From: a virus
Direction: 5' to 3' (one strand)
Length of the DNA stretch: 23,048 nt
Virus record (IMG/VR): IMGVR_UViG_3300031857_001463
Coordinates: 1 to 23,048 of that record
In this document: positions 1,251-23,048 of the stretch, piece by piece
Position numbering within the stretch: the first letter of the stretch is position 1
Layout: each line of letters opens with the position of its first letter
Notes under the pieces: generated by a model
Seen by the model: the letters and a program-made list of their open reading frames with translations, nothing else
Databases searched by the model: none
What the model was told of the DNA's origin: nothing
Translations under genes and position numbers: made by a program

Positions 1251-3089
1251 ATGGCAAACCGTAAAATATCATATACTACAAGAGATTATCAGGCAGTAAG
1301 AACCGAACTTCTCAATTACGTAAGAACGTATTATCCTGAATTAATTCAAGATTTTAATGACGCCTCAGTATTCTCGGTTTTCATTGATTTGAATGCGGCG
1401 ATTGCGGATAACCTTAACTACCAGATTGATAGAAGTATCCAAGAAACTGTTCTTCAATATGCACAACAAAAATCATCAATCTATAACATCGCCAGAACCT
1501 ATGGTTTAAAAATACCGGGACAAAGACCATCCGTTGCTTTGGTTGATTTCTCAATTACAGTTCCAGCGTTTGGTGATAAAGAAGATGAGAGATATTTGGG
1601 AACATTATTAAGAGGTTCTCAGGTTATTGGTGCGGGTATCGTTTTTGAAAATGTAAACGATATTGATTTTGCATCACCTTACAACTCAGAGGGATTTCCT
1701 AATAGACTTAAAATACCAAACTTTAATGCCAACGGAGTTCTTATCAACTACACAATAACAAAAAGAGAAGTTGTTGTTAATGGTATTACAAAAGTATTCA
1801 AAAGAGTTATTACACCAAACGATGTAAAACCTTTCTTCGAATTATTCTTACCTGAAAAGAACGTATTAGGTATCACAAGTGTGTTGTTGAAAAACGGAAC
1901 ACAATATACCAACGTTCCAACAACCGCTGAATTCTTAGGATTAGAGAACAGATGGTATGAAGTAGATGCTTTAGCGGAAGATAGAGTATTTGTTGAAGAC
2001 CCAACAAAAGTATCAGACCAACCAGGTATTAAAGTTGGTAGATATATTCAAACTCAGAATAGATTTATAACAGAATTTACACCTGAAGGATTTAAGAAAA
2101 TGACTTTTGGTGGAGGAACGAACACAGCACAAGATGCTTTAGACCAATTCACAACAGTTGGTGCAACATTGGACTTACAAAAATATTCAAATAACCTTTC
2201 ATTAGGTTCTGCGTTGACACCTAACTCAACACTGTTCGTTCAATATAGAGTTGGTGGTGGTTTAGCGACAAACTTAGGAACTAACATTATCAACCAAGTT
2301 GGAACAGTAACTTTCTTTGTTAATGGACCTTCAGAGAATACAAACTCTGCGGTGGTAAACTCTTTAAGATGTAATAACGTTACAGCGGCTATCGGTGGTG
2401 CAGGTGTTCCTTCTTTAGAAGAAATTAGAAACTACGTCTCTTTTAACTTCGCGGCACAGAAAAGAGCGGTAACAGTTCAAGACTATGAGTCAATATTGAG
2501 AAACATGCCATCACAATACGGTGCTCCTGCTAAGGTATCAATCACTGAAAACGATAATAAAATTTTGATTCAAATATTATCATATGATACATCAGGTAAG
2601 TTAACGAGTATTGTCTCGAATACTTTGAGACAAAACATAGCAAACTATCTTTCTAACTATAGAATGATGAATGATTATATTTCAATCTTAAGTGCTGAAG
2701 TTATTGATTTGAGTGTGGATGTTTCAATTGTTTTAGACTCCGCACAAAACTCAGGACAAGTTATTTCTGACGTAATCGATAAAGTCTCATCTTACTTTAA
2801 CCCACAGACAAGACAACTTGGTCAGAACGTATATCTATCAGAGCTGAAGAGTATAATACAAAATTCAAATGGAGTATTGACTGTTACAAGTGTTGATGTG
2901 TTTAATGAGGTTGGAGGACAGTATTCATCTGCTGAAACATCAATGGTATATTCTAACCCTGAAACAAGGGCAATTGGTCCTGTCGATGATACAATTTTCG
3001 CACAACCAAATCAGGTATATCAAATAAGATACCCTAACAAAGATATCAGAGTATCAGTTAAGAACTTCCAAACAGTAACATTATCTTAA
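1251..3089 (+). CDS. Baseplate wedge protein, T4 gp6 / baseplate J-like
   Basis: This 612-aa protein is close to the size of T4 gp6 (660 aa), the wedge component that forms the ring around the baseplate hub and whose core is shared with Mu gp47 and P2 gpJ. The N-terminal 90 residues have the typical TTRDYQAVR start, a helix with DFNDASVFSVFIDLNAAIADNLNYQIDR-type sequence, and an ARTYGL segment. Near residue 405 is RAVTVQDYE, the conserved J-like motif that opens the C-terminal ferredoxin-like domains. It begins 5 nt after the gp25-like gene and ends before an 87-nt gap, so the two probably form one unit. In T4 the gp6 dimer assembles with gp7; the best gp7 candidate here is nearly 10 kb downstream. 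Confidence 0.9.
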   Translation: MANRKISYTTRDYQAVRTELLNYVRTYYPELIQDFNDASVFSVFIDLNAAIADNLNYQIDRSIQETVLQYAQQKSSIYNIARTYGLKIPGQRPSVALVDFSITVPAFGDKEDERYLGTLLRGSQVIGAGIVFENVNDIDFASPYNSEGFPNRLKIPNFNANGVLINYTITKREVVVNGITKVFKRVITPNDVKPFFELFLPEKNVLGITSVLLKNGTQYTNVPTTAEFLGLENRWYEVDALAEDRVFVEDPTKVSDQPGIKVGRYIQTQNRFITEFTPEGFKKMTFGGGTNTAQDALDQFTTVGATLDLQKYSNNLSLGSALTPNSTLFVQYRVGGGLATNLGTNIINQVGTVTFFVNGPSENTNSAVVNSLRCNNVTAAIGGAGVPSLEEIRNYVSFNFAAQKRAVTVQDYESILRNMPSQYGAPAKVSITENDNKILIQILSYDTSGKLTSIVSNTLRQNIANYLSNYRMMNDYISILSAEVIDLSVDVSIVLDSAQNSGQVISDVIDKVSSYFNPQTRQLGQNVYLSELKSIIQNSNGVLTVTSVDVFNEVGGQYSSAETSMVYSNPETRAIGPVDDTIFAQPNQVYQIRYPNKDIRVSVKNFQTVTLS

Positions 3090-3176: not shown

Positions 3177-6100
3177 ATGGGTCAATCGTATAGGATTAGG
3201 ACCGAACTCGGTGTTAACAAGACGATAAACGTTCAAATAGACCAAGAGTTCGAATTTCTTGAGATTTTGTCTCTCAAACTTCAACAGGAAGACATATACG
3301 TTAGAGCTTGCTCTGATTATGGTGTTCTTGTGGGTAGAGTTACTGCCAATAATGGATTAGGTGTTCCTAATGCCCGAGTTGCTGTTTTTATCCCTATCGA
3401 TGTCGTTGACCAATCGAATCCAATCATAACGTCAATCTATCCTTATAAGTCAGTTGATGATAGAAATGAGGACGGTTATAGATATAACTTACTACCATAT
3501 GAGAAATCATATTCAAAACATGCGGCGACAGGGACATTACCCTCAAGAATAGATGCATTGACTGCCACAACTGTTGTAGATATCTACGACAAATATTATA
3601 AGTTTACTGCCAAAACAAATGAAAGTGGAGACTACATGATTATGGGTGTTCCACTTGGTATTCAAAATATCTTGATGGATGTGGATTTATCTGACATAGG
3701 TGAATTCTCATTAACACCACAAGATTTAATCAGGATTGGTTTAGCAACCGATGCCCAAGTTGCTGGAGACACTTTTAAAACCTCAACAGACTTAAATTCA
3801 TTACCACAAATTATTTCGATAAATAAACAAATTGAAATTTCACCTCTTTGGGGTGAACCATCAATATGTCAAATAGCCATCAACAGATTAGATTTTGATT
3901 TAAGAGATGATGCGAACGTTGATATCCAACCTACTGCAGTGTTCATGGGTTCAATTTATTCGACACCTGACACATATAGAATCAAAGGAGGTAAAACTGG
4001 TTTAGGTGCAAAACTTAGAGATGATTTCGGAAATCTTTGTCAACTACAGGCGGGACCTGGTCAAATATTAGCGATTAGACAGACAATACAAATTGATGAG
4101 GACGGTAACCCAATTTTAGAAGAATATAAATTAGAACAAAGTGGAAACATAATAGATGGTAATGGTTCTTGGTTAACTGAGTTACCAATGAACTTGGATT
4201 ATATTGTTACCAATGAGTTCGGAGAGAAAGTTTTATCAAACGACCCAACGATTGGAATTCCAACTAAGGCAAAATATAGATTTAAAATTAAATGGCAACA
4301 ATCTAACGAGTTATCTGAACAAACAAGAAGACCATACTACTTGGTTCCGAATGTTAGAGAGTATGGTTGGTCGAATAGTGCGTCAGACCCTAACCTTACA
4401 GGTGGAAATGATAGATTGGCAAGTTCATATTATTTTGGTTTAGCTTGGTCAGGATATACAAAAGGCTTTACAACAACACAAAGAATAAAGAAGTTGGATG
4501 AAATGATTGATTGTCAAGATACTTTCTATCAATTCAATTTCAACCGAGTGTATACAGTATCAGCTTTAATCGACCAATATAAAAGTGGAGGTAGAAGTAA
4601 ATTTGTAGGGATTAAAGAAATTGATAGTAACGAGTGTGCTGATTCAGTTAATAAATTTCCTGTAAACGAAGGATTCAGAAATTTTGATTTTCTATATTTC
4701 TTGTTTGCAATCATTTTCCAAGTCATACAAATAATCGGTATACCATTATTGGTTCTTTATCATTTCGTTGCTTGGTTATACAACAATTTTGCGGTGGTAG
4801 TAATTGGGGTCTTAATAGGTTTTGCAACAAAGGCGTTAATTCAAACAGGAATTGAAGGGTATGCATTCGTTTCCGCGGCGGTTGGAAATCCATTTACTTG
4901 GAATATGGTTTTGGCTGCGGGTTCAATTTTTTTGAGACTAGTGTTTTATACATTCCTAATACAACAATTAATTAAAAACTTTGGTAAATTAACTTCTTAC
5001 AATTTTGACCCTATAAAATTGGCGATGATACAATATCCCGACTGTCAAGCATGTCAGTGTAATAATGGTAACATCACACCTGTCACTAAAAATACAGAAG
5101 ATGTGCCACCCACACCTTCACAAATGACCCAAGTTTCGGGAACCGAATCATATCTTCAAACCATAGAAGGTTATTTAGCAACGAGACCACAAATAACAAA
5201 TATTACGAATCAAAGTGATGAAAATTATGACAGTATTTTAAATACTGTTGCTAGTGCTAATGGCCAGGCATTGTCAGGCGTACCAGGAAACGCTAAGAAT
5301 CCTAAAATTTATCATACAACTCGTTCACAAATATTCGGAAGAGCGAATGGTGATAGTCAAAGTGAAATGTTTGGACTTAGTTTAGACTTACCAATTGGTG
5401 AGAGAATAAACATTTATAATCTCAGGTCAAAGTTTTTCGATAATACAAACAAGATAAAAGTAACTTTTGCTGCTGACCAAAACCAAGGGTTTCATTATGA
5501 TAATACTCTAACAGTATTAACATCGGGTGATTATAATCCTGGTGATTTAATAACTTTTGTGAATCCTGCTTTGTCCCAAGACCCTAACTATAGATGGACA
5601 GGGACAACGATGGGTGGAAAAGTGATTAATGGTCTTACAGGAAAAGTGCCAACAGGAATTATACCAATAACTGTTAACTATGCGACTTCTCAAACAACAG
5701 ATGGCACCACAAATTATACATTACCTACAGGTTTTACTCCTACTTGTGTTACTAGTGTGACGATTAATGTTACAGAATCTGGTACGACTTCTTATTTGAC
5801 TTGCTATGGAGCAAAAAGTGCGTTGACTAAAACTGTTGGAACACATACAATCACTGACGTTGACTGTATTCAATTGAGTTCTTTGGGTGGAAGTGCAACA
5901 TATACTGTCACAGGTTATGGTGATGAATGTAGAGGGTATGATTATCCGATGGATATTGAATATTATCAAGTTCTTACTGCAATAACAATCACCAAGAGAG
6001 TTGTTAACAACTCTCCAATTTATTCTTTACCAAGCTTAGCCCCTGTCAACTCTAATGGTATAACCGCTAATCCAAGTTTTTGGAATCAATTAATACAACC

Positions 6101-8483
6101 TTCAACAATCATTACTTTTGATAAATGCAGAAGTGATTTTTGGGGGACAAATCCAACAACTGATAGAAATTTCATGTATTCTGAAAAATTGAATGCTACT
6201 TACCTCAATGAATTTGAGTCACAAAAAGTTCTCATATTGCAGAGAGGAGTTGACCCATATTCCCCACAGTATAATAACAAATATGGTATTGGAAGAATAT
6301 TGGGATATACAAATGAAGATGATGTAGTTATAACTGCATCAACAAGAATAAATGTTCCAATACAAAAACTACCAGCGGGGTCAACAACATCAGTTCAACA
6401 ACATAATGTTCAGAGTAACATATTTTTTCAATCTAATTTCTTCCGACCAATAAATCCACCTGTAAGCACACCAGGTCTAACTTTTAGTGGATTTTCAACT
6501 CCACTTGTAGGTTTTTACGGAGCTCTTGATAGTAACACAAGGTCAATTACAGCACTAGGAAATTCATATTATTCTAATAATTACGTGACTATTACATCGA
6601 ATGGAGGTGTTATTAGTAAACCAAATAACGTTTTTGTTCAGGTCAATTACAATCCTCCAAAATATCCAACAGGATTTTTCAATGGGACAACGGAAACAAA
6701 ATATAACAACTCTGATGATTTATCAGGGGGTGCAATTCTAAATGGTGGATACGGTTTTGTAGATGGTGACGATTTACCTTATGTTTTTGTCCGTTGTAGG
6801 TCTGCATCTTATACTCGGTATAACTCTGTCACAGAACAACTTTATTTTAGTCCATCTTTACTACCAATATTTAGTGCTACACCATTAAGTATAACAACTG
6901 CTCAAACTGTTATGAGAACTGATAGATTACCTTCATCTGATTATGCAGATAATGGTGGTAATTGGAGTGGAAGTGTTTCACTGTTACAACAAAATTTAGG
7001 GTTTCAAGTATATAATTTAACTTCAGGAGACGGAGTTGCTGGTATTACATTCAGTCAAGGGGCTGAAACAATCACTGCAGACATTGAAGGACAATACGCG
7101 GCCGGAAATGTCTTGGCATCCTTAAATGATTGTGATAGAATGGTTGGGCTTACCTGTTATTCAGGTGATGGAACTAATTTCGGAATTGAATTAGGTTGTG
7201 AGGAAAGTGATTCAATTGACAATGGATGCTATGTAATGGTTAGAAAACCGTTAACGGACTTGTTCAATGGTAAAGATTTTAAAACATTTGCGGAGTGGGG
7301 ATTCAGATATAGATTCTTCTATGCTTTATGTAGAGGGGTTTTAGCTCAAACCTTTACCAACAACTGGGTGAATGGTTCTTTATTTATGTTCCCAATTCAA
7401 GTGGACAGATACTTTAATAGTCAGAATAAGCCAGAACCACCTGTATTCCCAAAAAAATTAATCTATTTTGATTCTGATACAAATAATTTTTATTTCAGAA
7501 GTTCACCTTACATACCAACATCTGTATCGAATCCATTTATAGGGAGACCAACAACAGATGATACAAACCCAATAAATAACAGAAATCTTTTATTCCCAAC
7601 AACTATAGTCAATTTAGGGATGAAGGACTCATTTTATGATGAGATAACTTTCGAACCATCGACAGCGTCTTATGTGATGAGTAATTTGAATCCAACAAGT
7701 TATTCGGATACTTCAGATATCGTGAATCTTTTTGTGATTAGTAGAATTACTGATGAAAAGTTTTTACAACAATTAATCCCTTTAGGAGACAATTCTCTTA
7801 ATCAATTATTCAATAGATATGGAACAGGGCTATCAACGTTACCAAGACAAAGAATTGATGCAGATTTGGCTCAAATGATGTCTATCAATTCCGAGTTTGG
7901 AGTTATTCCTTTTTCACCTGAGTTTTATCCTTCGAATGGTAATCCTACTGACCCAATTAAAGTTGTTGGACCACCTGGCAATCCAACCATGGGAATATTT
8001 TTCTCATCAACAACAGCTAATCTACAAGATAAAGATTATATATCCCCTGGAGTTATAAACTTCAGACCCGACCCAAATCAAACCGCTGTAACCTATGAAT
8101 TTGGTATAAAATCACAATTGGTTCCTTTTTATCAATGGAGTCTTAGACAAGGTGGAGTTTCAAATATCTTCGGAAGTGAAAAAAATAACTGGGCGACTAC
8201 AATTAGTGACATTACAGAGTATCCATATCAAGCTTTAAGTAGAAGAAGAGTTGCTAATCCTAATTATTATTATGGTAATAATACGTCATACGATATATTC
8301 CAAAGAGGATATATTTTCAGCGTAACGAACACTAGTACCCCACAAAACACGACATACGATACATTCACTCTTTCTCAAAGCAGTAAGTTTTTAGTTGGAG
8401 CACCATATCATTTTTACTTTGGATTAATTAAAGGAGAAACCGCTTTGGATAAATTCAAAACTAAGTATGGAGCAAATGAATAG
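3177..8483 (+). CDS. Giant virion/baseplate-region protein with three hydrophobic segments, function unknown
   Basis: A 1768-aa protein that I cannot assign to a named family. Residues about 50-185 resemble a carboxypeptidase-regulatory/transthyretin-like beta domain: a VGRVTANNGLGVPNARVAVF strand pair, then TNESGDYMIMGVPLG with the usual G-x-Y and VP-x-G features, interrupted by an insertion. Residues about 505-605 are strikingly hydrophobic, with three likely membrane segments (about 505-535, 538-556 and 578-602). A CxxCxC cluster follows at C623, C626 and C628. The remainder is long, Asn/Thr/Ser-rich and beta-like, ending in a short charged tail (DKFKTKYGANE). It sits just after gp6-like in the baseplate cluster, so a structural role is inferred. 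It starts its own unit after an 87-nt gap and overlaps the next gene by 17 nt or 8 nt. Membrane segments are unusual for a baseplate part; a role in host-envelope contact is speculation. Confidence 0.9.
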   Translation: MGQSYRIRTELGVNKTINVQIDQEFEFLEILSLKLQQEDIYVRACSDYGVLVGRVTANNGLGVPNARVAVFIPIDVVDQSNPIITSIYPYKSVDDRNEDGYRYNLLPYEKSYSKHAATGTLPSRIDALTATTVVDIYDKYYKFTAKTNESGDYMIMGVPLGIQNILMDVDLSDIGEFSLTPQDLIRIGLATDAQVAGDTFKTSTDLNSLPQIISINKQIEISPLWGEPSICQIAINRLDFDLRDDANVDIQPTAVFMGSIYSTPDTYRIKGGKTGLGAKLRDDFGNLCQLQAGPGQILAIRQTIQIDEDGNPILEEYKLEQSGNIIDGNGSWLTELPMNLDYIVTNEFGEKVLSNDPTIGIPTKAKYRFKIKWQQSNELSEQTRRPYYLVPNVREYGWSNSASDPNLTGGNDRLASSYYFGLAWSGYTKGFTTTQRIKKLDEMIDCQDTFYQFNFNRVYTVSALIDQYKSGGRSKFVGIKEIDSNECADSVNKFPVNEGFRNFDFLYFLFAIIFQVIQIIGIPLLVLYHFVAWLYNNFAVVVIGVLIGFATKALIQTGIEGYAFVSAAVGNPFTWNMVLAAGSIFLRLVFYTFLIQQLIKNFGKLTSYNFDPIKLAMIQYPDCQACQCNNGNITPVTKNTEDVPPTPSQMTQVSGTESYLQTIEGYLATRPQITNITNQSDENYDSILNTVASANGQALSGVPGNAKNPKIYHTTRSQIFGRANGDSQSEMFGLSLDLPIGERINIYNLRSKFFDNTNKIKVTFAADQNQGFHYDNTLTVLTSGDYNPGDLITFVNPALSQDPNYRWTGTTMGGKVINGLTGKVPTGIIPITVNYATSQTTDGTTNYTLPTGFTPTCVTSVTINVTESGTTSYLTCYGAKSALTKTVGTHTITDVDCIQLSSLGGSATYTVTGYGDECRGYDYPMDIEYYQVLTAITITKRVVNNSPIYSLPSLAPVNSNGITANPSFWNQLIQPSTIITFDKCRSDFWGTNPTTDRNFMYSEKLNATYLNEFESQKVLILQRGVDPYSPQYNNKYGIGRILGYTNEDDVVITASTRINVPIQKLPAGSTTSVQQHNVQSNIFFQSNFFRPINPPVSTPGLTFSGFSTPLVGFYGALDSNTRSITALGNSYYSNNYVTITSNGGVISKPNNVFVQVNYNPPKYPTGFFNGTTETKYNNSDDLSGGAILNGGYGFVDGDDLPYVFVRCRSASYTRYNSVTEQLYFSPSLLPIFSATPLSITTAQTVMRTDRLPSSDYADNGGNWSGSVSLLQQNLGFQVYNLTSGDGVAGITFSQGAETITADIEGQYAAGNVLASLNDCDRMVGLTCYSGDGTNFGIELGCEESDSIDNGCYVMVRKPLTDLFNGKDFKTFAEWGFRYRFFYALCRGVLAQTFTNNWVNGSLFMFPIQVDRYFNSQNKPEPPVFPKKLIYFDSDTNNFYFRSSPYIPTSVSNPFIGRPTTDDTNPINNRNLLFPTTIVNLGMKDSFYDEITFEPSTASYVMSNLNPTSYSDTSDIVNLFVISRITDEKFLQQLIPLGDNSLNQLFNRYGTGLSTLPRQRIDADLAQMMSINSEFGVIPFSPEFYPSNGNPTDPIKVVGPPGNPTMGIFFSSTTANLQDKDYISPGVINFRPDPNQTAVTYEFGIKSQLVPFYQWSLRQGGVSNIFGSEKNNWATTISDITEYPYQALSRRRVANPNYYYGNNTSYDIFQRGYIFSVTNTSTPQNTTYDTFTLSQSSKFLVGAPYHFYFGLIKGETALDKFKTKYGANE

Positions 8484-10167: not shown

Positions 10168-10957
10168 GTATACAATGACCACAAACCAAGGACAGGATAG
10201 ATTAATAAATATCCCTGTGCAACTATCATGGGATTATTTAGGTAACGACCAAAGTATTGAGGTATATGAAGAAGAGGTTATTACAGAGGTAATTGGCGTG
10301 GGTAGAGATTTTGAAGTATCAAGATTTGCGAACCAAGCATATACAGGGTTGACTCAAATTATTACAGAAATTAATTATGAGTTTTATTTCTATTCGGGAG
10401 GGACTCTCAATTCATCTGCGAATTGGAAAATGGATTATACATTCGAAGGTTTCAGTGTTCAAGACATATATTATTACAATAATAATTTTACCAATTCATT
10501 TTTCAAGTTAGACTTCTACGATAGTAGGGATGAGAAGAGTCAAGTTAACTATTTAACGATTATCATTCCAACCCAACAAGGATATAAGATGCCTGCGATG
10601 ATGCAAAGAACCCCTGTTGAAATCAAAATGCCGAAGTTCACTTTAGATTATGTTGGAGATAAAGAAGGGTTTTTTATTTATTGGTTGAAGAAAAGAACGT
10701 TTTTAAATATTGACACATTCTTCATGACAGCCAAGTTCTTTAATGCGGAAAAAGGATATTTTGTAAAGATGATTAATCAAGGACAATTCAACATAGTTGC
10801 AAATCCTTTCAACTTGGATACCCTAACAAATTTTTATTATCCCGTGAAATTGAATTACGACACACAAACTTATGAGGTGTTTAATTCAACAAGTCAGAGA
10901 GTTGGATTAGCAACCAACCCGATAAAATGGTATGAATATGTTAACCCACCACAATAA
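10154..10957 (+). CDS. Putative baseplate/virion structural protein, family unknown
   Basis: A roughly 267-aa protein of unknown family. The frame is open back to 10109, but the start at 10154 (MDVNKY, 14-nt overlap with the upstream gene) or 10175 (MTTNQG, 7-nt gap) fits the short overlaps used elsewhere here. The sequence is acidic near the N-terminus (EVYEEEVITEV) and then aromatic and beta-like, with FIYWLKKRTFLNIDTFFMTA in the C-terminal half. No membrane segment or catalytic motif is visible. The stop codon overlaps the next start by one base (TAATG at 10955-10959), so the two are probably co-translated. Its size and place in a wedge gene cluster would suit a gp8-like component, but I see no sequence support for that. 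Confidence 0.82.
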   Translation: MDVNKYTMTTNQGQDRLINIPVQLSWDYLGNDQSIEVYEEEVITEVIGVGRDFEVSRFANQAYTGLTQIITEINYEFYFYSGGTLNSSANWKMDYTFEGFSVQDIYYYNNNFTNSFFKLDFYDSRDEKSQVNYLTIIIPTQQGYKMPAMMQRTPVEIKMPKFTLDYVGDKEGFFIYWLKKRTFLNIDTFFMTAKFFNAEKGYFVKMINQGQFNIVANPFNLDTLTNFYYPVKLNYDTQTYEVFNSTSQRVGLATNPIKWYEYVNPPQ

Positions 10958-12042
10958 TGGATTATAACTTTATAATATCACCCGAGAACATTCAAGGAGA
11001 CCTTGTAACTGTTGATTACAAAAATGAACCTGTAGGTGTATATTCAGGAATGAGTCAAATTTTGTCTGCTGGTCCTAATGGAAGTTCAATTCTGACAGGG
11101 TTAAGTGTGAATATTCTTTTGACGCAGACTGCGGTTGATGCTGGATATTATTCACCATTTGACGGAGCGATTTTACAAAAAGATATTGTTGCTAATTTCA
11201 TATTCTCCTCCACAACAGGAAACCCATACACTTATTATGTTTATAATACCTCTAATGATTTCCAAAAGTTTTTAGAGTTATCGCAATATTCAATTGATTG
11301 GGGAGATGGTTCACAGATTCAAGCTTTCCCACAAAGAACACCTAATTACATCTCACATCAATACCCAACCAACACACCTAATCAATACAAAATTACTGTG
11401 AGACAGATAAACCCATGGGGGATTACTGTTGTTGAAAAAACTGTCACTACGCCATACACTGAAGTTGTTGCACCTAACCCACAAGGAACTGCTTACTTTG
11501 TTTCAAACAACGGAAGTTGGAGTGCAACACCTGTGAGTTACAACTACATATTCTCAGGTGATGCTGTTAACGAAGTTCAACCTCAATTGTCGTATAACTA
11601 CGTAACAGTTCCATATACAATTTCAGGTTTAACTGTTTCAAGACTTAATGAACTTACGCCATATGGTAATCTTACACCACAACAAAGAATTGGATTACCA
11701 ATTATCCAAAATGGACAAATTTGGGGAACAATTACAAACATTGACCCTCTCTTCACAGCATATACAATTAACACAGTAGATTATTATGATTTCAGTGGAG
11801 GGACAACAATATTTTTTGAACAATCTTCAGGATTTACAAGTGATAATATGACCGCAGTTCCAATCACAAAAAATGAAGCACTTCTCAAGGTCATGGACCA
11901 ACCACAAATTCAAACTGATGTGTTCGTTGAAAGAGGTAAGAACAGTGCATATGAGAGAGTTCAAAGGTTAGGAGAGGTTGACAACTTAGGAGATATGATT
12001 AATTATGGATATGGATTTTTTAACGTTGAAAATAAGGACTAA
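10957..12042 (+). CDS. Structural protein with PKD-like domain
   Basis: A 361-aa protein. Residues about 110-165 look like a PKD (Ig-like) domain: SIDWGDGS (W115-S119), then a HxYP turn, YKITVRQIN and a closing VVEKTVTTP strand. PKD domains are common in surface and adhesion proteins and in phage virion proteins, where they mediate protein or glycan contacts. The C-terminal 60 residues (KNEALLKVMDQPQIQTDVFV, then ERGKNSAYERVQRLGEVDNL) are helical and charged, unlike the rest, and may attach the protein to the baseplate. It starts on a TAATG overlap with the gene before it and is followed by a 23-nt gap with a TATTTAT motif. The exact role is unknown. Confidence 0.86.
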   Translation: MDYNFIISPENIQGDLVTVDYKNEPVGVYSGMSQILSAGPNGSSILTGLSVNILLTQTAVDAGYYSPFDGAILQKDIVANFIFSSTTGNPYTYYVYNTSNDFQKFLELSQYSIDWGDGSQIQAFPQRTPNYISHQYPTNTPNQYKITVRQINPWGITVVEKTVTTPYTEVVAPNPQGTAYFVSNNGSWSATPVSYNYIFSGDAVNEVQPQLSYNYVTVPYTISGLTVSRLNELTPYGNLTPQQRIGLPIIQNGQIWGTITNIDPLFTAYTINTVDYYDFSGGTTIFFEQSSGFTSDNMTAVPITKNEALLKVMDQPQIQTDVFVERGKNSAYERVQRLGEVDNLGDMINYGYGFFNVENKD

Positions 12043-12974: not shown

Positions 12975-15958
12975 TGGCAACATCAAGAAGCAAATATTTT
13001 TACCCTCCGAGACCAGGTAATGGTGCGGGGACATTTTCCGATAACATTGTTGGATTACAAACAGTTAATGGAGGGGGTCTTACGCTTGGAACATTTGACT
13101 TCAACACAGTTGTAACTGAAAAAGTTAATAGATTCTTCAATGTAGGAGCGTTTTCTGAACTAATAAGTTTGGAAGGGCTCGGTATTGATGATTTGACTGA
13201 AAGTAGGAGAATTCAGGCGACACAATTCAGAGTTTATCCAAACTATGATGTGTCTCAAGTTCTTAATTTTACTATGTATGGTTCACTATCTAAAAGATTC
13301 AGTGTTTCCATAACTAAAATTATCAATTATTTCCCAGCATCACTTGATGTTCAGTATGAAACAGAAAACTTCTTAACAGGAGAAACTGCCGTTAATATTT
13401 CATACAATGCTTTGGAAGATGAAACCTTCTTTAGAGTAAACCTTGATAGAATATTCAATCCGTTCGGTATTGATTACACAATAAGTGCAACCACTAACCT
13501 GTCTTTGAGAGAGATAGTCGTTTCACCACTCAGAAACTTGACTGAAACCTACCTTGACTATGTTATCAATCTTAGTGGTATGTCTTACCCTGTAGTTTCT
13601 TTCAATCCTTCGGATTCACTAACTTCGGGTTACATTGAATTTTATGTTTCGGGTGCACCTTTCGGGACAAGCGCAACAACCTTTGAAGATAATTTCACAA
13701 TAAGACCAAGTGACTACATTGTTGATAAAAGCTTTGGAGAAAACTTTGATGAGGTTGAAAGGTTCTTATTGAATAGACTTGTAGTGCCAGAATATACCGC
13801 GTTTTTCCAAGTCCCACAACAAAACGAGGCGGGACAGTATTATACTCAATATACTCAAGTAACTTGGCCAAAAGAAGGTCCTTGGAACTTGAATATCCGT
13901 GGAATATCTTTCGACAATTATCTTACACAACTTCAAGAAATTGCTGTGAATCTTGATTCATTCAAAACGAATTTGATTTCAAGATTTTTGGTAACCGATT
14001 CGTTGAAAGAGTTTGATACTTTGGGTCAAAAAGTTGAAAAAATATTCCAAATATATGGAAGAAGTTTTGACCAAGTAAAACAGTTCATCGATACGTTGGG
14101 ATACATGAACTCAGTAAATTATAATGCTGGAAATGATATACCCTCTCAACTATTAGTTAACCTATCTCAAACGTTAGGCTGGCAATCAAATTTTTCTCCG
14201 ATAACTGAGGAGGATTTTCTGACTTCTGTTTTCGGAAACCAAAGTAATACAAACTATCCTGGTTATGCAAGAGCCTTAACACCAACAGAATTAAATTATG
14301 CTTATTACAGAAATTTAATCTTGAACGCAGCTTACCTTTTCAAATCAAAAGGAACAAGAAGGTCTGTTGAATTTCTTCTTAGATTAATTGGGGCACCTGA
14401 TTCTTTGATTGAATATAATGAACACATTTATTTAGCCGACCAAAGAATTGATTTAGAAAGATTTGATACTCAATGGGCTCAAATCTCTGGTGGAACATAT
14501 GTTGAACAAACACCGTCATACCTACCAGGGACAACCTTCAAAATCAAAGGACAGACATTTAGTGCATATACATCAACAACAACTTACCAAACTGCCAGAA
14601 TACTAAGAAGTGATTACCCAATTGATGTGGAAGGATATCCACAAGCACCAAGAGACACAGAAACTTATTTTTTCCAAATAGGTTCTGGTTGGTATGAAAC
14701 AACGCCACAACACAGAAGTCCTGACGAAGTTCAAGTTACAGGAAATGTCTTCACAGGACAAAACTATAATATTCAGACTCAATTACAACCGTTTACCTAC
14801 GGTCAACCATATCTTGACAGATATACTGATTTCCCATACATGACTGAAGGGTTCAAGTTAAGAAAGGTTGTAGACAATAATAAATCATGGTTGTCGGATG
14901 ATGAAAAGATTAGAGTTTCAACTCAAGGAGACTACAACGCTTATTACTATGTTTCCAATGAGAAACTAGTTCTTAACGTGAAGAATGTTGATTTATTTCT
15001 GAATCCAGCACAAGGTTTTGTTTATGATGTTTGGAAGGAATCAGTTAAGTATGATTACCCTATTCCTGAATCAGGATTGACAGTAGGTTATCCTGTTCCT
15101 GGCGGAGTTGATTGGACTTACATAAATCCCGAGCCAAAGAAAAAAACGTTTTTTGAATTCTCACAAACTTTTTGGGAAAACATGATTAACGTTAGAAACA
15201 GACAATACATTACTGATGGTAAAACAGGTGGATATCCCGTATTACAATCTATCTTTTGGAAATACTTGGAGTCAGAACAAACAGTTGGTATACCAAACAA
15301 CAAATACACATATCAAAAATTAATTGATTATGTTGTAAACTTGGGGCCTTATTGGACAAAGTTGGTTGAACAAATGGTTCCAGCAACCACAATTTGGATG
15401 GGTGGAGTTAAATACGAAAACTCAATTTTCCATAGACAAAAGTTTGTCTATAGAAGACAAAGAGGTTGTCAGTTTGTTCCTGTTCCAAAATTACCATGTG
15501 TGGTGGCTGCTGAGGTATTTCCAACGGACGGAGCAGTTGAATATGTTGATTTTGCAATATATCCTTGGCTCAATGGTAACACACAAGTTTCTAGTTTTGA
15601 GGCAATACTAAATAATGTTTTGTCAAATTACTTTACAAGTCAAGGACTATTATCGACTCAATGTGATTTAAATTCTGTTGTATCTACTTGGTATGTTGAT
15701 TTGAAAATTGGTTCTAACACAATTATTCAAGAAGCATTCTTCACAGGATATGGTAATACTGATGTTCCAACAACAACAGAATGGAAAAACGCTTTGTTAC
15801 AATATCTACCTAATTTATACAATTATGGGTATACTTTTTTCATTGAGGGTAATATAATAAAAATTATGAGTATGACCGCAACACCTATTTATATTGATGA
15901 AGTTATCAGTTTGAATGCGGGAATTTCATTCACAATTAATTGCACGACAATATCATGA
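12974..15958 (+). CDS. Baseplate wedge protein, T4 gp7 / P2 gpI-like
   Basis: A 994-aa protein close in length to T4 gp7 (1032 aa). The diagnostic part is residues about 445-480: AAYLFKSKGTRRSVEFLLRL, then IGAP and a run of acidic residues. T4 gp7 has a comparable STKGIEASYKFLF segment, and P2 gpI-type tail proteins share the R/S-KGT motif; these proteins join the gp6/gpJ dimer as the core bundle of the baseplate wedge. The assignment is by motif and size, not alignment. The N-terminal 300 residues are beta-rich and variable. Residues 897-990 form a distinct C-terminal domain that recurs at the end of the next protein. The start overlaps the previous stop by one base, and the stop overlaps the next start in TGATG. 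Confidence 0.85.
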   Translation: MATSRSKYFYPPRPGNGAGTFSDNIVGLQTVNGGGLTLGTFDFNTVVTEKVNRFFNVGAFSELISLEGLGIDDLTESRRIQATQFRVYPNYDVSQVLNFTMYGSLSKRFSVSITKIINYFPASLDVQYETENFLTGETAVNISYNALEDETFFRVNLDRIFNPFGIDYTISATTNLSLREIVVSPLRNLTETYLDYVINLSGMSYPVVSFNPSDSLTSGYIEFYVSGAPFGTSATTFEDNFTIRPSDYIVDKSFGENFDEVERFLLNRLVVPEYTAFFQVPQQNEAGQYYTQYTQVTWPKEGPWNLNIRGISFDNYLTQLQEIAVNLDSFKTNLISRFLVTDSLKEFDTLGQKVEKIFQIYGRSFDQVKQFIDTLGYMNSVNYNAGNDIPSQLLVNLSQTLGWQSNFSPITEEDFLTSVFGNQSNTNYPGYARALTPTELNYAYYRNLILNAAYLFKSKGTRRSVEFLLRLIGAPDSLIEYNEHIYLADQRIDLERFDTQWAQISGGTYVEQTPSYLPGTTFKIKGQTFSAYTSTTTYQTARILRSDYPIDVEGYPQAPRDTETYFFQIGSGWYETTPQHRSPDEVQVTGNVFTGQNYNIQTQLQPFTYGQPYLDRYTDFPYMTEGFKLRKVVDNNKSWLSDDEKIRVSTQGDYNAYYYVSNEKLVLNVKNVDLFLNPAQGFVYDVWKESVKYDYPIPESGLTVGYPVPGGVDWTYINPEPKKKTFFEFSQTFWENMINVRNRQYITDGKTGGYPVLQSIFWKYLESEQTVGIPNNKYTYQKLIDYVVNLGPYWTKLVEQMVPATTIWMGGVKYENSIFHRQKFVYRRQRGCQFVPVPKLPCVVAAEVFPTDGAVEYVDFAIYPWLNGNTQVSSFEAILNNVLSNYFTSQGLLSTQCDLNSVVSTWYVDLKIGSNTIIQEAFFTGYGNTDVPTTTEWKNALLQYLPNLYNYGYTFFIEGNIIKIMSMTATPIYIDEVISLNAGISFTINCTTIS

Positions 15959-18105
15959 TGGCCGTACCACCAAATATTAACCCTTTAAATTATACAATAT
16001 CAATAACAGGTGATTGTAGTAATAATGCTTCAGGTATTATTTCTATTTTTGTAAGTGGAGGAACTCCACCTTATTCATTTGAATGGCAAGATTTCTCACC
16101 GTGTGTAAACTCTTTGGGTTTATGTGAAAAATTTGGATTGACTAGCGGAATTTATGCTGTCAGAATCAACGATAGCTCTTTACCTCAAAATAATCAGTTT
16201 ATTGTAAACATACCTGTATCTGATGGTGTTTGTGCATCAATAGTGCAAGTTCAAAATACAACTTGTAATTTTTTCAATGGGGCAGTAACAGGTTCTTCAA
16301 ATTCAGAATATTCCTCAACATTATTTTATCTTGTTGATTCAGGAGACTCATTTTTACAATCAGCAACAACAGCGGTTCAAGACGTCGTTTTCACTAATTT
16401 AAGTGCGGGAACTTACAATTTGATAGCATTTGATTTAGGTGGGTGTAGTGCAAGAACCCAAAGTTTCATTGTTGATAACTCACCTACTTTAGATTTTGGT
16501 TTTTATATTGTTCCTAACTCGAATTGTGGCTCGAATCAAACCAATGGTAAGTTATTCGTCACAGGTGTTACAGGAACACCACCGTTTACATATAATTGGA
16601 GTGTCGGGACATCAACAGGTTCAACTCTTACAGGATTGACCGCAGGAGTTTATTCTTGCACAGTCACAGACGCTTATGGATGTCAAGCTAGCAAATCCGC
16701 AGAGGTAACAACAGTTAATCCGTTGGCTTTTGGTTATTGGTCAGCAACAACTCCAACATGTTTCAACAGTGACGGGTCTCTTACATTATATATTACAGGA
16801 GGAACTGCACCATATTATTATTCTGCTTCAACAGGAAACGTCGAAGTTAGTTATCTACAACAGTTTACATTAAATTCAATTCCTTCAGGAACATATAGTG
16901 TTTCAGTAACGGATGCCGGCCTTTGTAATATTAATGTAACAACAAGCCTACAGTCACCACAGAGTATAGCCTCAGTTGACATATCATCAACAAATTCAAA
17001 TTGTTCCTCAAATGATGGTTCAATCACAGTCGCAGTATCACAAGGTAGCACACCATACACATACACGTTAGTCAAACCGAATGGAGATACCGTCACCACA
17101 CAATCGGCTCAACCTTTACAAGTTTATACAGGACTACAAGAAGGAACTTATACAGTCTTTGTATCAGACGCCACGGGTTGTGGAACAAGTCAAGAAGTAT
17201 ATATCTTAGCTCAAGACACATTCACAATTTCAACGTCTATTACAGGAACAACTTGCGGTGCGAATAACGGAGTGGTTCAGGTTTTCAGAACTACAGGTGG
17301 AACAGGTCCTTACGACTTTTCTTTGGATGATGACCAAATTATATTAGACACTTCTTTATCGGCAATAACATTCTCGAATGTTTCTGCTGGACAACACACA
17401 ATTACTGTTACTGATTCCACAGGTTGCACACAAACACAACAAGTTGTTGTCTCTGCTCAACCCTTGTTAACTTTCTCACTTTATTCTCAAGGATGTGGAA
17501 CAGGAGATGAAGGAGTTTTAACCGCATTCATCTCGTCAGGAACTCCGCCGTTCACATTCGATTGGTCAAACAATGTTACAGGAAATCCTCAACAAATATC
17601 AGTTTCAGGATTAAGTGCGGGGACATACACTTTGACCATTGTTGATGCGAATGCTTGTTCATACCAAAGAACTGCTGTCATATCTTGTAACGCCAATTTT
17701 GTTTCATATCAAACATATTTGATGGGCTCAGAAGCTTTAACAGTTCAATCTCAATCTAAGCGAGGATTGTTACAAATGTTGAATGATGGTTATCAAGATT
17801 TGGTTGATGGTAATCCTAATTGTAATTTAGTTAGTGCCGTTTATATTGCAAAAGTTTCGACAGACCCTGGTGGACTTACAAATCAACAAGCATTCTTCAC
17901 AGGAACAACACTCAACATAGCACCATCGGACAACTTATGGTATGATACAGTTAAGAGTTTGTTGCTAACAATACCAGGTATTTCGAATGTTGTAATTGAC
18001 CCAATAAACAATTCATTATCAATTTCTACAGACCCTAATAACACAAGTATTATTACGGAAAAAATCATTATAGAGTTGATAATCAATTATGATATAAATT
18101 GTTAG
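15958..18105 (+). CDS. SprB-repeat surface/fibre protein
   Basis: A 715-aa protein using the start MAVPPNIN at 15958, which overlaps the upstream TGA by one base; in-frame ATGs at 15940 and 15955 are less likely. Residues 14-576 are seven tandem SprB-like repeats, each with a Cys near the start, a G-T-P-P-Y/F-x-F/Y core, an L/S-A/S-G-T-Y turn, and a V-T/S-D-x-x-G-C strand. Such repeats are known from long adhesins of Bacteroidota, including the gliding adhesin SprB. Residues 622-715 form a non-repeat C-terminal domain shared with the gp7-like protein. I infer an elongated tail-associated adhesin or baseplate-attached fibre that contacts the host surface. There is no signal peptide, as expected for a virion protein. 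Confidence 0.88.
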   Translation: MAVPPNINPLNYTISITGDCSNNASGIISIFVSGGTPPYSFEWQDFSPCVNSLGLCEKFGLTSGIYAVRINDSSLPQNNQFIVNIPVSDGVCASIVQVQNTTCNFFNGAVTGSSNSEYSSTLFYLVDSGDSFLQSATTAVQDVVFTNLSAGTYNLIAFDLGGCSARTQSFIVDNSPTLDFGFYIVPNSNCGSNQTNGKLFVTGVTGTPPFTYNWSVGTSTGSTLTGLTAGVYSCTVTDAYGCQASKSAEVTTVNPLAFGYWSATTPTCFNSDGSLTLYITGGTAPYYYSASTGNVEVSYLQQFTLNSIPSGTYSVSVTDAGLCNINVTTSLQSPQSIASVDISSTNSNCSSNDGSITVAVSQGSTPYTYTLVKPNGDTVTTQSAQPLQVYTGLQEGTYTVFVSDATGCGTSQEVYILAQDTFTISTSITGTTCGANNGVVQVFRTTGGTGPYDFSLDDDQIILDTSLSAITFSNVSAGQHTITVTDSTGCTQTQQVVVSAQPLLTFSLYSQGCGTGDEGVLTAFISSGTPPFTFDWSNNVTGNPQQISVSGLSAGTYTLTIVDANACSYQRTAVISCNANFVSYQTYLMGSEALTVQSQSKRGLLQMLNDGYQDLVDGNPNCNLVSAVYIAKVSTDPGGLTNQQAFFTGTTLNIAPSDNLWYDTVKSLLLTIPGISNVVIDPINNSLSISTDPNNTSIITEKIIIELIINYDINC
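15997..17685 (+). repeat. Seven tandem SprB-like protein repeats
   Basis: Repeats of about 70-78 codons at protein residues about 14-87, 95-172, 181-250, 259-331, 340-417, 424-499 and 505-576. They are divergent in DNA and protein, so the expansion is old, unlike the near-identical units in the fibre gene downstream. Repeats 1 and 2 are the least canonical. Confidence 0.85.
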
Positions 18106-18106
18106 T

Positions 18107-18442
18107 ATGGTTCAGGTAAGAATAGAAGGAATAAGCGGGGCAACATATCCAGTTTCAGTTTTCATTGCTGACTATTATGGGAATAACCAAACCTTGATTG
18201 GAACCATACCCTCAGGTCCCGTTCCGCCACAAGTAAGTTATAATACAAGTATTCCAAGTTTATTTTATACGGCACCTCAGATTATGCTCATTTTGAGAGA
18301 CTCTGTAGGTTGCGAAACTTTCCAATTGTTAGATTGCACATTTGGTTGCACATTTCAAATCACAATACAGGAAGCAAATTGTGTTGTTAATATTTCTATT
18401 GATGAAGCTGTTTGTGGTTTTAATATTGTCACCACAACATAG
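18107..18442 (+). CDS. Small Cys-containing protein, possible SprB-related fragment
   Basis: A 111-aa protein that starts one base after the SprB-repeat gene. The first half is strand-like (VQVRIEGISG, then YPVSVFIADYYGNNQTLIG). The middle has LILRDSVGCETFQLLDC, which resembles the closing V-x-D-x-x-G-C strand of the SprB repeats upstream. The last 35 residues add three more cysteines. The N-terminal part also resembles in layout residues 28-75 of the 369-aa protein downstream (a VRL strand, then a PF/YP-x-V-x-V/I-D strand), but this is a visual match only. It is probably a small accessory structural protein; its function is unknown. An 84-nt gap with an AT-rich inverted repeat follows. Confidence 0.75.
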   Translation: MVQVRIEGISGATYPVSVFIADYYGNNQTLIGTIPSGPVPPQVSYNTSIPSLFYTAPQIMLILRDSVGCETFQLLDCTFGCTFQITIQEANCVVNISIDEAVCGFNIVTTT

Positions 18443-19675: not shown

Positions 19676-22600
19676 ATGGCAACAACAAGAATAACCGACT
19701 TACCTATAGTATCAGGAGCGTCCCCTCAAGATATACTATATATTGTAACAGATTTCACTGGAGGAACATCAGGAACTTCAGGACAGATAACTTTTTCGGC
19801 ATTAACAGCCTCCATTACGGGAGGAACTAGTGGTTCATCTGGCACTTCAGGTTCAAGTGGAACAAGTGGTGTAGATGGTAGTTCAGGAACCTCAGGCATT
19901 GATGGTTCATCAGGAACTAGCGGTGTAGATGGTAGTTCAGGAACTTCAGGAACTGATGGTTCATCAGGAACTAGTGGAACCGACGGGTCATCAGGAACAT
20001 CTGGTTCAAGTGGAACAGATGGTTCATCAGGAACTTCGGGTATCGATGGTTCATCAGGAACTTCAGGTATTGATGGTTCAAGTGGAACAAGTGGTGTTGA
20101 TGGTAGTTCAGGAACTTCAGGTATTGATGGTTCAAGTGGAACAAGTGGGACAGATGGTTCATCAGGAACTTCAGGAACTGACGGGTCTTCAGGAACTTCA
20201 GGTATTGATGGTTCTTCAGGAACTTCGGGTATCGATGGTTCATCAGGAACTTCTGGTATTGATGGTTCATCAGGAACTTCTGGTATTGATGGTTCATCAG
20301 GAACAAGTGGGACAGATGGTTCAAGTGGGACTTCAGGAATAGATGGTTCATCAGGAACAAGCGGGACAGATGGTTCAAGTGGGACTTCGGGAATTGATGG
20401 TTCTTCGGGGACTTCAGGTATAAGTGGTGTTGATGGAACTGATGGTAGTTCAGGTTCTTCGGGAACTTCAGGGACAGACGGTAGCTCAGGCACAAGCGGT
20501 ATAGATGGTTCTTCAGGGACAAGTGGAACAGATGGTTCATCAGGAACTTCAGGAGTAGATGGTTCTTCAGGAACAAGTGGAACAGACGGTTCAAGTGGAA
20601 CCTCAGGAATTGATGGTTCTTCAGGAACAAGTGGAACAGATGGTTCATCAGGAACTTCAGGAGTAGATGGTTCTTCAGGAACAAGTGGAACAGACGGTTC
20701 AAGTGGAACCTCAGGAATTGATGGTTCTTCAGGAACCTCAGGAATTGATGGTTCTTCAGGGACAAGCGGAACAGATGGTTCTTCAGGAACAAGTGGAACA
20801 GATGGTTCGTCAGGAACTTCTGGTTCATCAGGAACTGACGGTTCAAGCGGAACCTCAGGCTCTTCAGGAACTGACGGTTCATCAGGGACTTCGGGTTCAA
20901 GTGGAACAGATGGCTCATCAGGAACTTCTGGCTCTTCAGGAACGGACGGTTCATCAGGAACTTCTGGTTCATCAGGAACAGATGGTAGTTCAGGAACGTC
21001 AGGCTCTTCAGGGACAGATGGTAGTTCAGGAACATCAGGCTCTTCAGGAACAGATGGTTCATCAGGGACTTCTGGTTCAAGTGGAACAGATGGTAGTTCA
21101 GGAACTTCTGGTTCTTCAGGCACAGATGGCTCTTCAGGTACTTCAGGTATAGATGGCTCTTCAGGAACTTCTGGTTCATCAGGAACGGATGGTAGTTCAG
21201 GAACATCAGGTTCAAGCGGAACATCAGGTAGTTCAGGTTCTTCAGGAACATCAGGTAGTTCAGGTTCTTCAGGAACATCAGGTATAGACGGTTCTTCAGG
21301 AACTTCAGGTATAGACGGTTCATCAGGAACTTCTGGAACTTCAGGTATAAGTGGTGTAAATGGAACTAGCGGAAGTTCTGGTTCAAGTGGAACTTCTGGT
21401 TCTTCAGGAATTTCTGGAACAGACGGTAGTTCAGGAACATCAGGTTCAAGTGGAACTGATGGTAGTTCAGGAACTTCTGGTTCTTCAGGAACAGATGGTA
21501 GTTCAGGGACTTCGGGTTCTTCAGGGACGGATGGTAGTTCAGGGACTTCGGGTTCTTCAGGGACGGATGGTAGTTCAGGGACTTCGGGTTCTTCAGGAAC
21601 AGATGGTAGCTCAGGAACTTCTGGTTCTTCAGGGACTTCGGGTTCAAGCGGAACAGATGGTAGTTCAGGAACTTCTGGTTCTTCAGGAACAGATGGTAGC
21701 TCAGGAACTTCTGGTTCTTCAGGAACTTCTGGTTCTTCAGGAACGGATGGTAGTTCAGGGACTTCTGGTTCAAGTGGAACATCAGGTTCAAGTGGAACAG
21801 ATGGTAGTTCAGGAACATCAGGAATAGATGGTTCTTCTGGCACATCAGGTTCAAGTGGAACAGATGGTAGCTCAGGAACTTCTGGCTCAAGCGGAACAGA
21901 CGGTAGCTCAGGAACATCAGGTTCAAGTGGAACAGATGGTAGTTCAGGAACATCGGGCTCTTCAGGAACTGATGGTTCAAGCGGAACTTCTGGTTCTTCA
22001 GGAACTGATGGTTCAAGCGGAACTTCTGGTTCTTCAGGAACTGATGGTTCAAGCGGAACTTCTGGTTCTTCAGGAACTGATGGTTCAAGCGGAACGTCTG
22101 GTTCTTCGGGAACAGATGGCTCTTCAGGGACATCTGGTTCTTCAGGAACATCAGGTTCAAGTGGAACGGATGGTAGTTCAGGAACTTCTGGTTCTTCAGG
22201 AACAGACGGTAGCTCAGGAACTTCTGGCTCAAGTGGAACAGATGGGTCTTCAGGGACTTCAGGTTCTTCAGGAACAGATGGTTCGAGTGGGACGTCTGGT
22301 TCTTCAGGAACAGATGGTTCTTCTGGCACATCAGGTTCAAGTGGAACGGATGGTTCTTCTGGCACATCAGGTTCAAGTGGAACAGATGGTAGTTCTGGAA
22401 CATCAGGTTCAAGTGGAACGGACGGTTCATCAGGAACTTCTGGCTCAAGTGGAACAGATGGCTCTTCTGGCACATCAGGTTCAAGTGGAACAGATGGTAG
22501 TTCTGGAACATCAGGCTCAAGTGGAACAGATGGCTCTTCTGGCACATCAGGTTCAAGTGGAACAGACGGTAGCTCAGGAACATCAGGTTCAAGTGGAACA

Positions 22601-23048
22601 GACGGTAGCTCAGGAACATCAGGCTCAAGTGGAACAGATGGTAGCTCAGGAACTTCAGGTTCATCAGGAACAGATGGTTCAAGCGGAACTTCAGGTTCAT
22701 CAGGAACTTCTGGCTCAAGTGGAACTTCTGGTTCATCAGGAACTGACGGTTCAAGCGGAACTTCTGGTTCATCAGGAACAGATGGTAGTTCAGGAACTTC
22801 TGGTTCATCAGGAACAGATGGTTCAAGTGGGACTTCTGGTTCATCAGGAACAGACGGTAGCTCAGGAACTTCTGGTTCATCAGGAACATCAGGTTCATCA
22901 GGTAGTTCAGGAACATCAGGTTCATCAGGTAGTTCAGGAACAGATGGTTCAAGTGGGACTTCTGGTTCATCAGGAACAGATGGCTCAAGTGGGACTTCAG
23001 GTTCTTCAGGAACATCTGGTTCTTCAGGAACATCTGGTTCAAGTGGAA
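19676..23048 (+). CDS. Collagen-like (Gly-X-Y) tail fibre protein, 3' end outside window
   Basis: An open frame of at least 1124 codons from ATG 19676 to the window edge with no stop codon. Residues 1-45 (MATTRITDLPIV, then PQDILYIVTDFTGG and QITFSAL) match the short N-terminal attachment domain common to phage tail fibres. From residue 50 on the protein is an unbroken Gly-X-Y array built almost only from GSS, GTS, GTD, GID and GVD triplets, with no proline. Collagen-like regions in phage fibres form rigid trimeric stalks; without proline the stability must come from other contacts, which is inference. A receptor-binding or trimerisation tip is expected beyond the window. Long antisense frames here are by-products of codon composition. 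Because the array is repetitive, its true length in the genome may differ from the assembled length. Confidence 0.9.
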   Translation, partial: MATTRITDLPIVSGASPQDILYIVTDFTGGTSGTSGQITFSALTASITGGTSGSSGTSGSSGTSGVDGSSGTSGIDGSSGTSGVDGSSGTSGTDGSSGTSGTDGSSGTSGSSGTDGSSGTSGIDGSSGTSGIDGSSGTSGVDGSSGTSGIDGSSGTSGTDGSSGTSGTDGSSGTSGIDGSSGTSGIDGSSGTSGIDGSSGTSGIDGSSGTSGTDGSSGTSGIDGSSGTSGTDGSSGTSGIDGSSGTSGISGVDGTDGSSGSSGTSGTDGSSGTSGIDGSSGTSGTDGSSGTSGVDGSSGTSGTDGSSGTSGIDGSSGTSGTDGSSGTSGVDGSSGTSGTDGSSGTSGIDGSSGTSGIDGSSGTSGTDGSSGTSGTDGSSGTSGSSGTDGSSGTSGSSGTDGSSGTSGSSGTDGSSGTSGSSGTDGSSGTSGSSGTDGSSGTSGSSGTDGSSGTSGSSGTDGSSGTSGSSGTDGSSGTSGSSGTDGSSGTSGIDGSSGTSGSSGTDGSSGTSGSSGTSGSSGSSGTSGSSGSSGTSGIDGSSGTSGIDGSSGTSGTSGISGVNGTSGSSGSSGTSGSSGISGTDGSSGTSGSSGTDGSSGTSGSSGTDGSSGTSGSSGTDGSSGTSGSSGTDGSSGTSGSSGTDGSSGTSGSSGTSGSSGTDGSSGTSGSSGTDGSSGTSGSSGTSGSSGTDGSSGTSGSSGTSGSSGTDGSSGTSGIDGSSGTSGSSGTDGSSGTSGSSGTDGSSGTSGSSGTDGSSGTSGSSGTDGSSGTSGSSGTDGSSGTSGSSGTDGSSGTSGSSGTDGSSGTSGSSGTDGSSGTSGSSGTSGSSGTDGSSGTSGSSGTDGSSGTSGSSGTDGSSGTSGSSGTDGSSGTSGSSGTDGSSGTSGSSGTDGSSGTSGSSGTDGSSGTSGSSGTDGSSGTSGSSGTDGSSGTSGSSGTDGSSGTSGSSGTDGSSGTSGSSGTDGSSGTSGSSGTDGSSGTSGSSGTDGSSGTSGSSGTDGSSGTSGSSGTSGSSGTSGSSGTDGSSGTSGSSGTDGSSGTSGSSGTDGSSGTSGSSGTDGSSGTSGSSGTSGSSGSSGTSGSSGSSGTDGSSGTSGSSGTDGSSGTSGSSGTSGSSGTSGSSG
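20519..20736 (+). repeat. 108-nt period direct duplication within the fibre array
   Basis: Positions 20519-20628 and 20627-20736 read identically by eye, with a 108-nt period equal to four 27-nt units (36 residues). The identity includes synonymous sites, so the duplication is recent. Confidence 0.8.
21497..21604 (+). repeat. Near-identical 36-nt tandem units in the fibre array
   Basis: Three consecutive 36-nt units (21497, 21533 and 21569) encode GSSGTSGSSGTD; the first two are identical and the third differs at the GGG-ACG/GGA-ACA codons. Confidence 0.78.
21956..22099 (+). repeat. Four near-identical 36-nt tandem units in the fibre array
   Basis: Units starting at 21956, 21992, 22028 and 22064 encode GSSGTDGSSGTS. 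The second and third are identical; the first differs by GGC for GGT and the fourth by ACG for ACT. This indicates recent slippage or unequal recombination. Confidence 0.82.

Follow-up and report, generated by a model that had tools for sequence, protein, structure and literature searches.

Genes and features of the locus

The window, meaning the whole stretch of DNA analysed here, is the 23,048-base virus record IMGVR_UViG_3300031857_001463, and the features that concern us are collected in Table 1. Homologues of gp25 and gp6/J are followed, across five unassigned genes, by the gene for a 994-aa wedge-type protein, and directly after it comes a gene for a 715-aa SprB-repeat protein. A 1768-aa protein (3177-8483), encoded after gp6 and ahead of the remaining baseplate genes, matched no PHROG at E 1 and no Pfam family at E 0.01. 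At the upstream edge lies a 78-aa DUF5522 protein (515-751, E 4.3e-18) that overlaps the end of a truncated frame; the C-terminus of this frame presumably resembles class II ribonucleotide reductase, and the frame had no Pfam match at E 0.01.

Table 1. Positions of the genes, domains, overlap and cysteine codons discussed in the text.
Feature	Coordinates	Strand	Basis
gp25 homologue	772-1245		profile/domain match
gp6/J homologue	1251-3089		profile/domain match
Wedge-type baseplate protein, 994 aa	12974..15958	+	ORF; downstream of gp25 and gp6/J; weak core likeness
Domain copy 1, wedge residues 852-991	15527..15946	+	hhalign (A3 columns 21-160); AlphaFold2 pLDDT 82.3
Cys897 codon	15662..15664	+	Cys in 67/67 wedge rows; pairs with Cys622
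Cys990 codon	15941..15943	+	Cys in 67/67 wedge rows; pairs with Cys715
TGATG, wedge stop and SprB ATG overlapping by 1 nt	15956..15960	+	sequence
SprB-repeat protein, 715 aa	15958..18105	+	PF13573 E 8.4e-23, 5 stretches
SprB-repeat arm, N-terminal of the domain (limits approximate)	15958..17682	+
Domain copy 2, SprB residues 576-715	17683..18102	+	hhalign; AlphaFold2 pLDDT 72.3
Cys577 codon	17686..17688	+	Cys in 69/69 SprB copies
Cys622 codon	17821..17823	+	Cys in 69/69 SprB rows
Cys715 codon, final residue	18100..18102	+	Cys in 69/69 SprB rows

Downstream of the SprB gene are genes for a small, cysteine-containing protein of 111 aa (18107-18442), a 369-aa protein with PTPT linkers, and a very long GSSGTSG collagen-like protein (19676-23047; Pfam Collagen E 9.7e-154) whose gene leaves the window and whose long antisense frames look like by-products of the repeat. 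Two look-alikes of the small protein were seen by eye in a distant relative, L092 (8441-8995 and 13049-13708), where they run on into PTPT linkers, which suggests that these small proteins are a reused connector module.

The 994-aa protein had been described as gp7-like in the first-pass annotation, a name for which comparison with T4 gp7 by hhalign and PHROG gave no support. An alignment of 101 wedge-family rows against 22 T4-type gp7 sequences reached a best hhalign probability of 0.6 over 22 columns, and 16 rows against T4 gp7 alone reached 0.2. Among 16 family members scanned, the best PHROG match had E 0.013 and none fell to phrog_964, the family matched by the T4 gp7 control, while Pfam gave nothing better than E 0.081. 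What can be claimed is a wedge role, based on position beside the gp25 and gp6 homologues and on a core weakly common to the wedge-position protein of Microcystis phage Mel-JY01 (hmm 301-484, E 9.1e-9) and, more faintly, of Flavobacterium phage immuto (E 0.0059 for the whole protein, 0.026 for the best stretch); gp7 serves as a positional label only. The neighbouring protein clearly belongs with the SprB-repeat proteins (PF13573, 80.2 bits against a cut-off of 28) and looks adhesin-like.

A domain shared by the wedge and SprB C-termini

Both proteins had been proposed to end in the same 94-residue domain, bounded by cysteines. The landmarks given for it were exact: Cys 897 and 990 of the wedge protein and Cys 622 and 715 of the SprB protein each span 94 residues, AFFTG starts 24 (wedge) or 23 (SprB) residues past the first Cys, and in both copies the seventh and twelfth residues after AFFTG are Pro and Trp, with INC at the domain end. 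The span is thus real, but the shared unit is larger, about 140 residues (852-991 and 576-715), because the alignment of the two families starts about 45 residues ahead of the first Cys of the core. Similarly, AFFTG is present in both window copies but is not kept literally across the family, the wedge-copy consensus at this site being FYTGYG and the SprB copies having an invariant F and T and a variable G. Over 30 rows of both copy types the invariant columns were C, P, I and C.

Homology was assessed with family alignments built from the best 80 of 406 and the best 80 of 288 IMG/VR matches; among the matches of the whole wedge protein the best 80 of 224 were taken as relatives, 11 SprB-domain relatives were confirmed among 20 candidate stretches, and the most distant wedge protein, used as a query, returned two IMG/VR loci, one of them its own record. 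The two C-termini of the window gave a pairwise BLOSUM62 local score of 58; 2000 shuffles averaged 33.2 +/- 6.0, and 0.2% of them reached 58. The family profiles (67 wedge rows and 69 SprB rows) aligned end to end over 136 columns with a score of 40.1, a probability of 85% and an E of 6.1e-6, the latter being the value for one comparison. Both alignments are shallow (Neff 2.6 and 3.0), and the probability grew from 41 to 73 to 85 as they were deepened. Controls against the wedge-copy profile fell far lower: the SprB profile, column-shuffled 300 times, had a mean of 13.3 and a maximum of 22.3, the reversed SprB profile scored 10.2, windows of the SprB body ahead of the domain scored at most 14.4, and windows taken within the body of the wedge protein did not exceed 16.9. 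In an HMM cross-search of six-frame ORFs from 93 sequences, the best listed matches of the wedge-domain HMM outside its own family were SprB C-termini (iE 2.7e-4 and 3.2e-4; next unrelated protein 0.11), and those of the SprB-domain HMM were wedge C-termini (iE 0.014 to 0.48; next unrelated ORF 0.88). The wedge and SprB C-termini carry homologous domains. This domain matches no recognised family in Pfam, PHROG or the solved structures: residues 852-991 and 576-715 had no Pfam or PHROG match above cut-off, the nearest approaches being sub-threshold matches of the SprB copy to HMA (E 0.0066) and phrog_32986 (E 0.2), and sequence searches against solved structures gave nothing usable.

AlphaFold2 models made with the family alignments agree with this relationship. 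The wedge copy was predicted with a mean pLDDT of 82.3 and a pTM of 0.73, and the SprB copy with moderate confidence (72.3 and 0.71), its first 17 residues and residues 26-34 lying mostly below a pLDDT of 50. The comparison of models that had been suggested as a check gave the same order of elements in both copies, strand-helix-strand-strand-helix-strand-strand-strand, with one extra strand (26-30) in a low-confidence stretch ahead of the first helix of the SprB model. Secondary-structure state agreed in 71% of the 135 residue pairs of the profile alignment, dropping to 44-61% when the alignment was slid by 3-6 residues and to 22-35% when slid by 10-25. We read the fold as probably ferredoxin-like alpha/beta with an added hairpin, a common arrangement that is uninformative on function.

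Because the arrangement is common, we considered whether the two C-termini could have converged on it without shared ancestry. Structure searches do return many unrelated proteins at middling Z: the best VIA-align match of the SprB copy was yeast Pol eta (Z 7.7, rmsd 3.5, 112 aligned) and that of the wedge copy the T7 tail chain 9jyz_P 146-239 (Z 5.3, rmsd 3.8, 89 aligned), values in a range (5.3-7.7) that may reflect merely a common arrangement. T7-type tail tubular proteins and sheath proteins came up repeatedly as weak matches and were not taken as evidence of function, and Foldseek found no match in the PDB at E <= 0.001 for either copy. Against BFVD, the first-ranked Foldseek match of the wedge copy was itself a 'SprB repeat' protein of an uncultured Caudovirales phage, A0A6J5LD72 (714 aa; E 3.3e-6, probability 1.00, TMq 0.59, rmsd 6.9 over 145 columns, the aligned part of the target being unspecified), and the second was an uncharacterised 985-aa protein, A0A6J5L8T1 (E 2.4e-3). 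The lengths of the two match those of the SprB and wedge families here, so they probably represent these two families as carried by further phages of the group and not an independent kind of protein. With an SprB protein ranking first among predicted viral structures, a profile score far beyond the shuffled, reversed and body-segment controls, and a full-length, collinear alignment in which three Cys columns match, convergence is very improbable.

The matching cysteine columns pair, in wedge and SprB copy numbering, as 66-55, 159-148 and 22-10, where Cys66 and Cys159 of the wedge copy (A3 numbering) are residues 897 and 990. In 62 of the 67 wedge rows the column aligned with Cys577 holds Cys, with Gly in the window, and two further wedge cysteines ahead of the domain (Cys1 and Cys11, A3 numbering) were likewise Cys in 67/67 rows. 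In the models, Cys 66/55 fall where the second strand begins and Cys 159/148 where the last one ends, positions that make a disulfide or other structural role possible; the invariant cysteines may form disulfides or be buried in such a role. In Milano phage, disulfides occur within the baseplate and to its receptor-binding proteins, which is a precedent (PMC10811340).

Pairing, age and divergence of the two copies

Among 255 sequences, a redundant set that includes the window and in which contigs recur between scans, 233 carried both copies. The other 22 carried the wedge copy alone and stop 5-1803 bases past the wedge ORF, too early for a full second copy, and none of the 255 had the SprB copy alone; as loci were retained by similarity, phages lacking the domain could be missed. 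A combined profile found two clear copies, in adjacent wedge and SprB genes, in each of 16 long records (102-326 kb) that were picked by length from the related loci and may be incomplete; since several score identically, they represent fewer than 16 independent phages. Four of these records (G001-G004, from L028, L149, L154 and L226) are 317-326 kb long, so that some members of the group, at least, are jumbo-sized phages.

The possibility that the domain also sits on other baseplate proteins, raised in the first-pass annotation, was not borne out: the 16 long records held no clear third copy, with a single additional hit, 40 columns long (E 0.003), to a 1797-aa ORF in one of the records. Profile comparison with the families of nine other window proteins gave a best score of 19.2, below the shuffling maximum of 22.3, the gp25 and gp6 families being represented in this search by 2 rows each. 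A 361-aa protein (10957-12042) was rejected as a candidate, its weak hits (iE 0.11 and up) being without profile support.

In tblastn searches of annotated phages the wedge protein had no match at E <= 1e-5 and the SprB domain none at E <= 1, and the distant L092 wedge protein had one hit, to Mel-JY01, at E 0.5. A scan of genome contigs confirmed no relative. Three phages were reached through gp6, namely Mel-JY01, immuto and an uncultured phage of 484 kb; by HMM the shared domain was not seen in them, where a diverged copy may lie beneath the reach of the HMM.

A tree of 15 wedge and 15 SprB domains was divided by one branch into the two types, with support of 100/100, placing the duplication before the diversification of the sampled group. 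In the window, the wedge copy and its neighbouring SprB copy share 21% identity, within the 16-24% seen when that wedge copy is compared with SprB copies from 14 other phages. On these identities and the single-branch split, gene conversion between the copies was rejected; as judged from the sequences, the history is one duplication, older than the sampled group, with no later homogenising. The earlier proposal that a module was duplicated onto two neighbouring tail proteins is in this way backed by profile, predicted fold and phylogeny alike.

The two genes are tightly linked. Across 94 distinct pairs, the SprB gene's first ATG overlaps the wedge stop codon in 76, by 1 nt in 70 and by 4 nt in 6. 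Overlap of start and stop codons is an established pattern of coupled translation, and the arrangement favours translational coupling of the two genes. No more than 13 residues trail the wedge copy in any of the 255 ORFs. In the SprB protein the domain match begins at ORF residue 550-579 in 233/233 ORFs (redundant loci included), so the length of the arm ahead of it is near-constant. The domain is not always the SprB terminus, as 31-422 residues trail it in 15 of the 233 ORFs. These belong to 9 distinct relatives (L009, L012, L022, L025, L057, L097, L161, L024 and L027), whose proteins have a TPT-rich linker past the domain and, in 7/9, more sequence after the linker; five of the C-terminal extensions were scanned and had no Pfam hit at cut-off. 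The arm could thus carry the SprB copy at its outer end.

Chain-end positions such as these would be expected of a self-contained capping or homo-oligomerising module that serves each protein separately, the copies making no contact. A parallel exists in T4, where the neighbouring genes for gp10, gp11 and gp12 give superimposable baseplate proteins of related fold, thought to be of common origin (PMC3004832), but those three are peripheral trimers, whereas here one partner is a wedge protein. A capping function by itself leaves the pairing of the copies in adjacent, mostly overlapping genes unexplained and fits less well with the modules found past the SprB copy in some phages, and we regard it as possible but rather doubtful.

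Median identity across 92 distinct phages was 69% for the wedge copy and 80% for the 699 residues preceding it, which brings the wedge copy nearer to the SprB arm (60%) and the SprB copy (63%). Faster evolution than the preceding stretch, together with an adhesin-like partner, is what might be seen if both proteins showed the domain to the host surface as a ligand- or receptor-binding module. The C, P, I and C columns are nonetheless invariant over both types, the arm ahead of the domain is near-constant in length, and the length-variable parts lie elsewhere, in the C-terminal extensions and downstream genes, making direct receptor binding an unlikely role. In pairwise distances across 91 phages the two copies were each other's best partners among 27 other segments (Pearson r 0.88), with other fast-evolving segments reaching 0.86. 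By rank correlation the wedge copy followed two segments of the 361-aa protein, encoded two genes upstream of the wedge gene, slightly more closely (0.802 and 0.794) than the SprB copy (0.793). The co-divergence of the copies therefore gives weak backing to docking between them, and the rank values give less than the Pearson values.

A possible joint between wedge and arm

The reading that we prefer, and that we rate at close to an even chance, combines the ancestral duplication with a paired docking module, by which the SprB arm would be held through its C-terminal end at the baseplate periphery. A domain of about 140 residues was duplicated in an ancestor of the phage group, leaving the wedge protein and the SprB protein encoded next to it with paralogous C-terminal copies. 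The two copies would pack together at the periphery as a pseudo-symmetric hetero-oligomer, and this hetero-pair would anchor on the wedge the C-terminal end of an Ig-like SprB arm of fixed length, with the N-terminal SprB repeats facing outward. We infer the physical contact of the copies and the orientation of the arm, the hetero-pair being the most economical reading of the gene overlap, the constant arm length, the divergence and its correlations, and the precedents in T4 and XM1.

The proposed arrangement would resemble the contact of the C-terminal part of T4 gp10 with a domain of gp7. In the available part of the T4 account, a residue in that part of gp10 contacts gp7 domain B, and a conserved gp10 cysteine lies there (PMC3004832). 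As in the T4 gp7-gp10 pair, a wedge protein of about 1000 aa would be joined to a separate peripheral protein through the C-terminal part of the latter. The two systems differ in that neither the wedge protein here and T4 gp7 nor the shared domain and T4 gp10 have a detectable sequence relation, and the same portion of that account describes no domain common to gp7 and gp10. A second precedent comes from XM1, in which flexible parts of gp17, orthologous to gp7, take part in binding the tail spike and domain I of gp17 is homologous to domain I of its partner gp16 (PMC10457771). The (gp6)2-gp7 and XM1 (gp16)2-gp17 assemblies, as presented there, thus show homologous parts of different wedge proteins in one bundle; their homologous part is the helix-turn-helix domain I, in contrast to the C-terminal alpha/beta domain found here, which is common to a wedge protein and an adhesin-like one. 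The open-access library searched yielded no paper on SprB repeats in phage baseplates and none on duplicated wedge domains.

A more specific form of this docking model, which we consider somewhat unlikely, is that the paralogous copies, as members of a new domain family, form a pseudo-symmetric, cysteine-braced, lock-and-key joint in a common group of large, uncultured phages; the joint would couple host sensing by the arm to opening of the wedge, would evolve faster than the wedge and would keep arm and wedge matched to each other.

To our knowledge, the attachment of adhesins to contractile baseplates has been described in atomic detail for few phages. A domain carried once by the wedge protein and once by its adhesin-like neighbour in every untruncated member of the sampled group would amount to a compact two-part joint, and the pair of domains may serve as a sequence marker for wedge-adhesin pairs in metagenomes.
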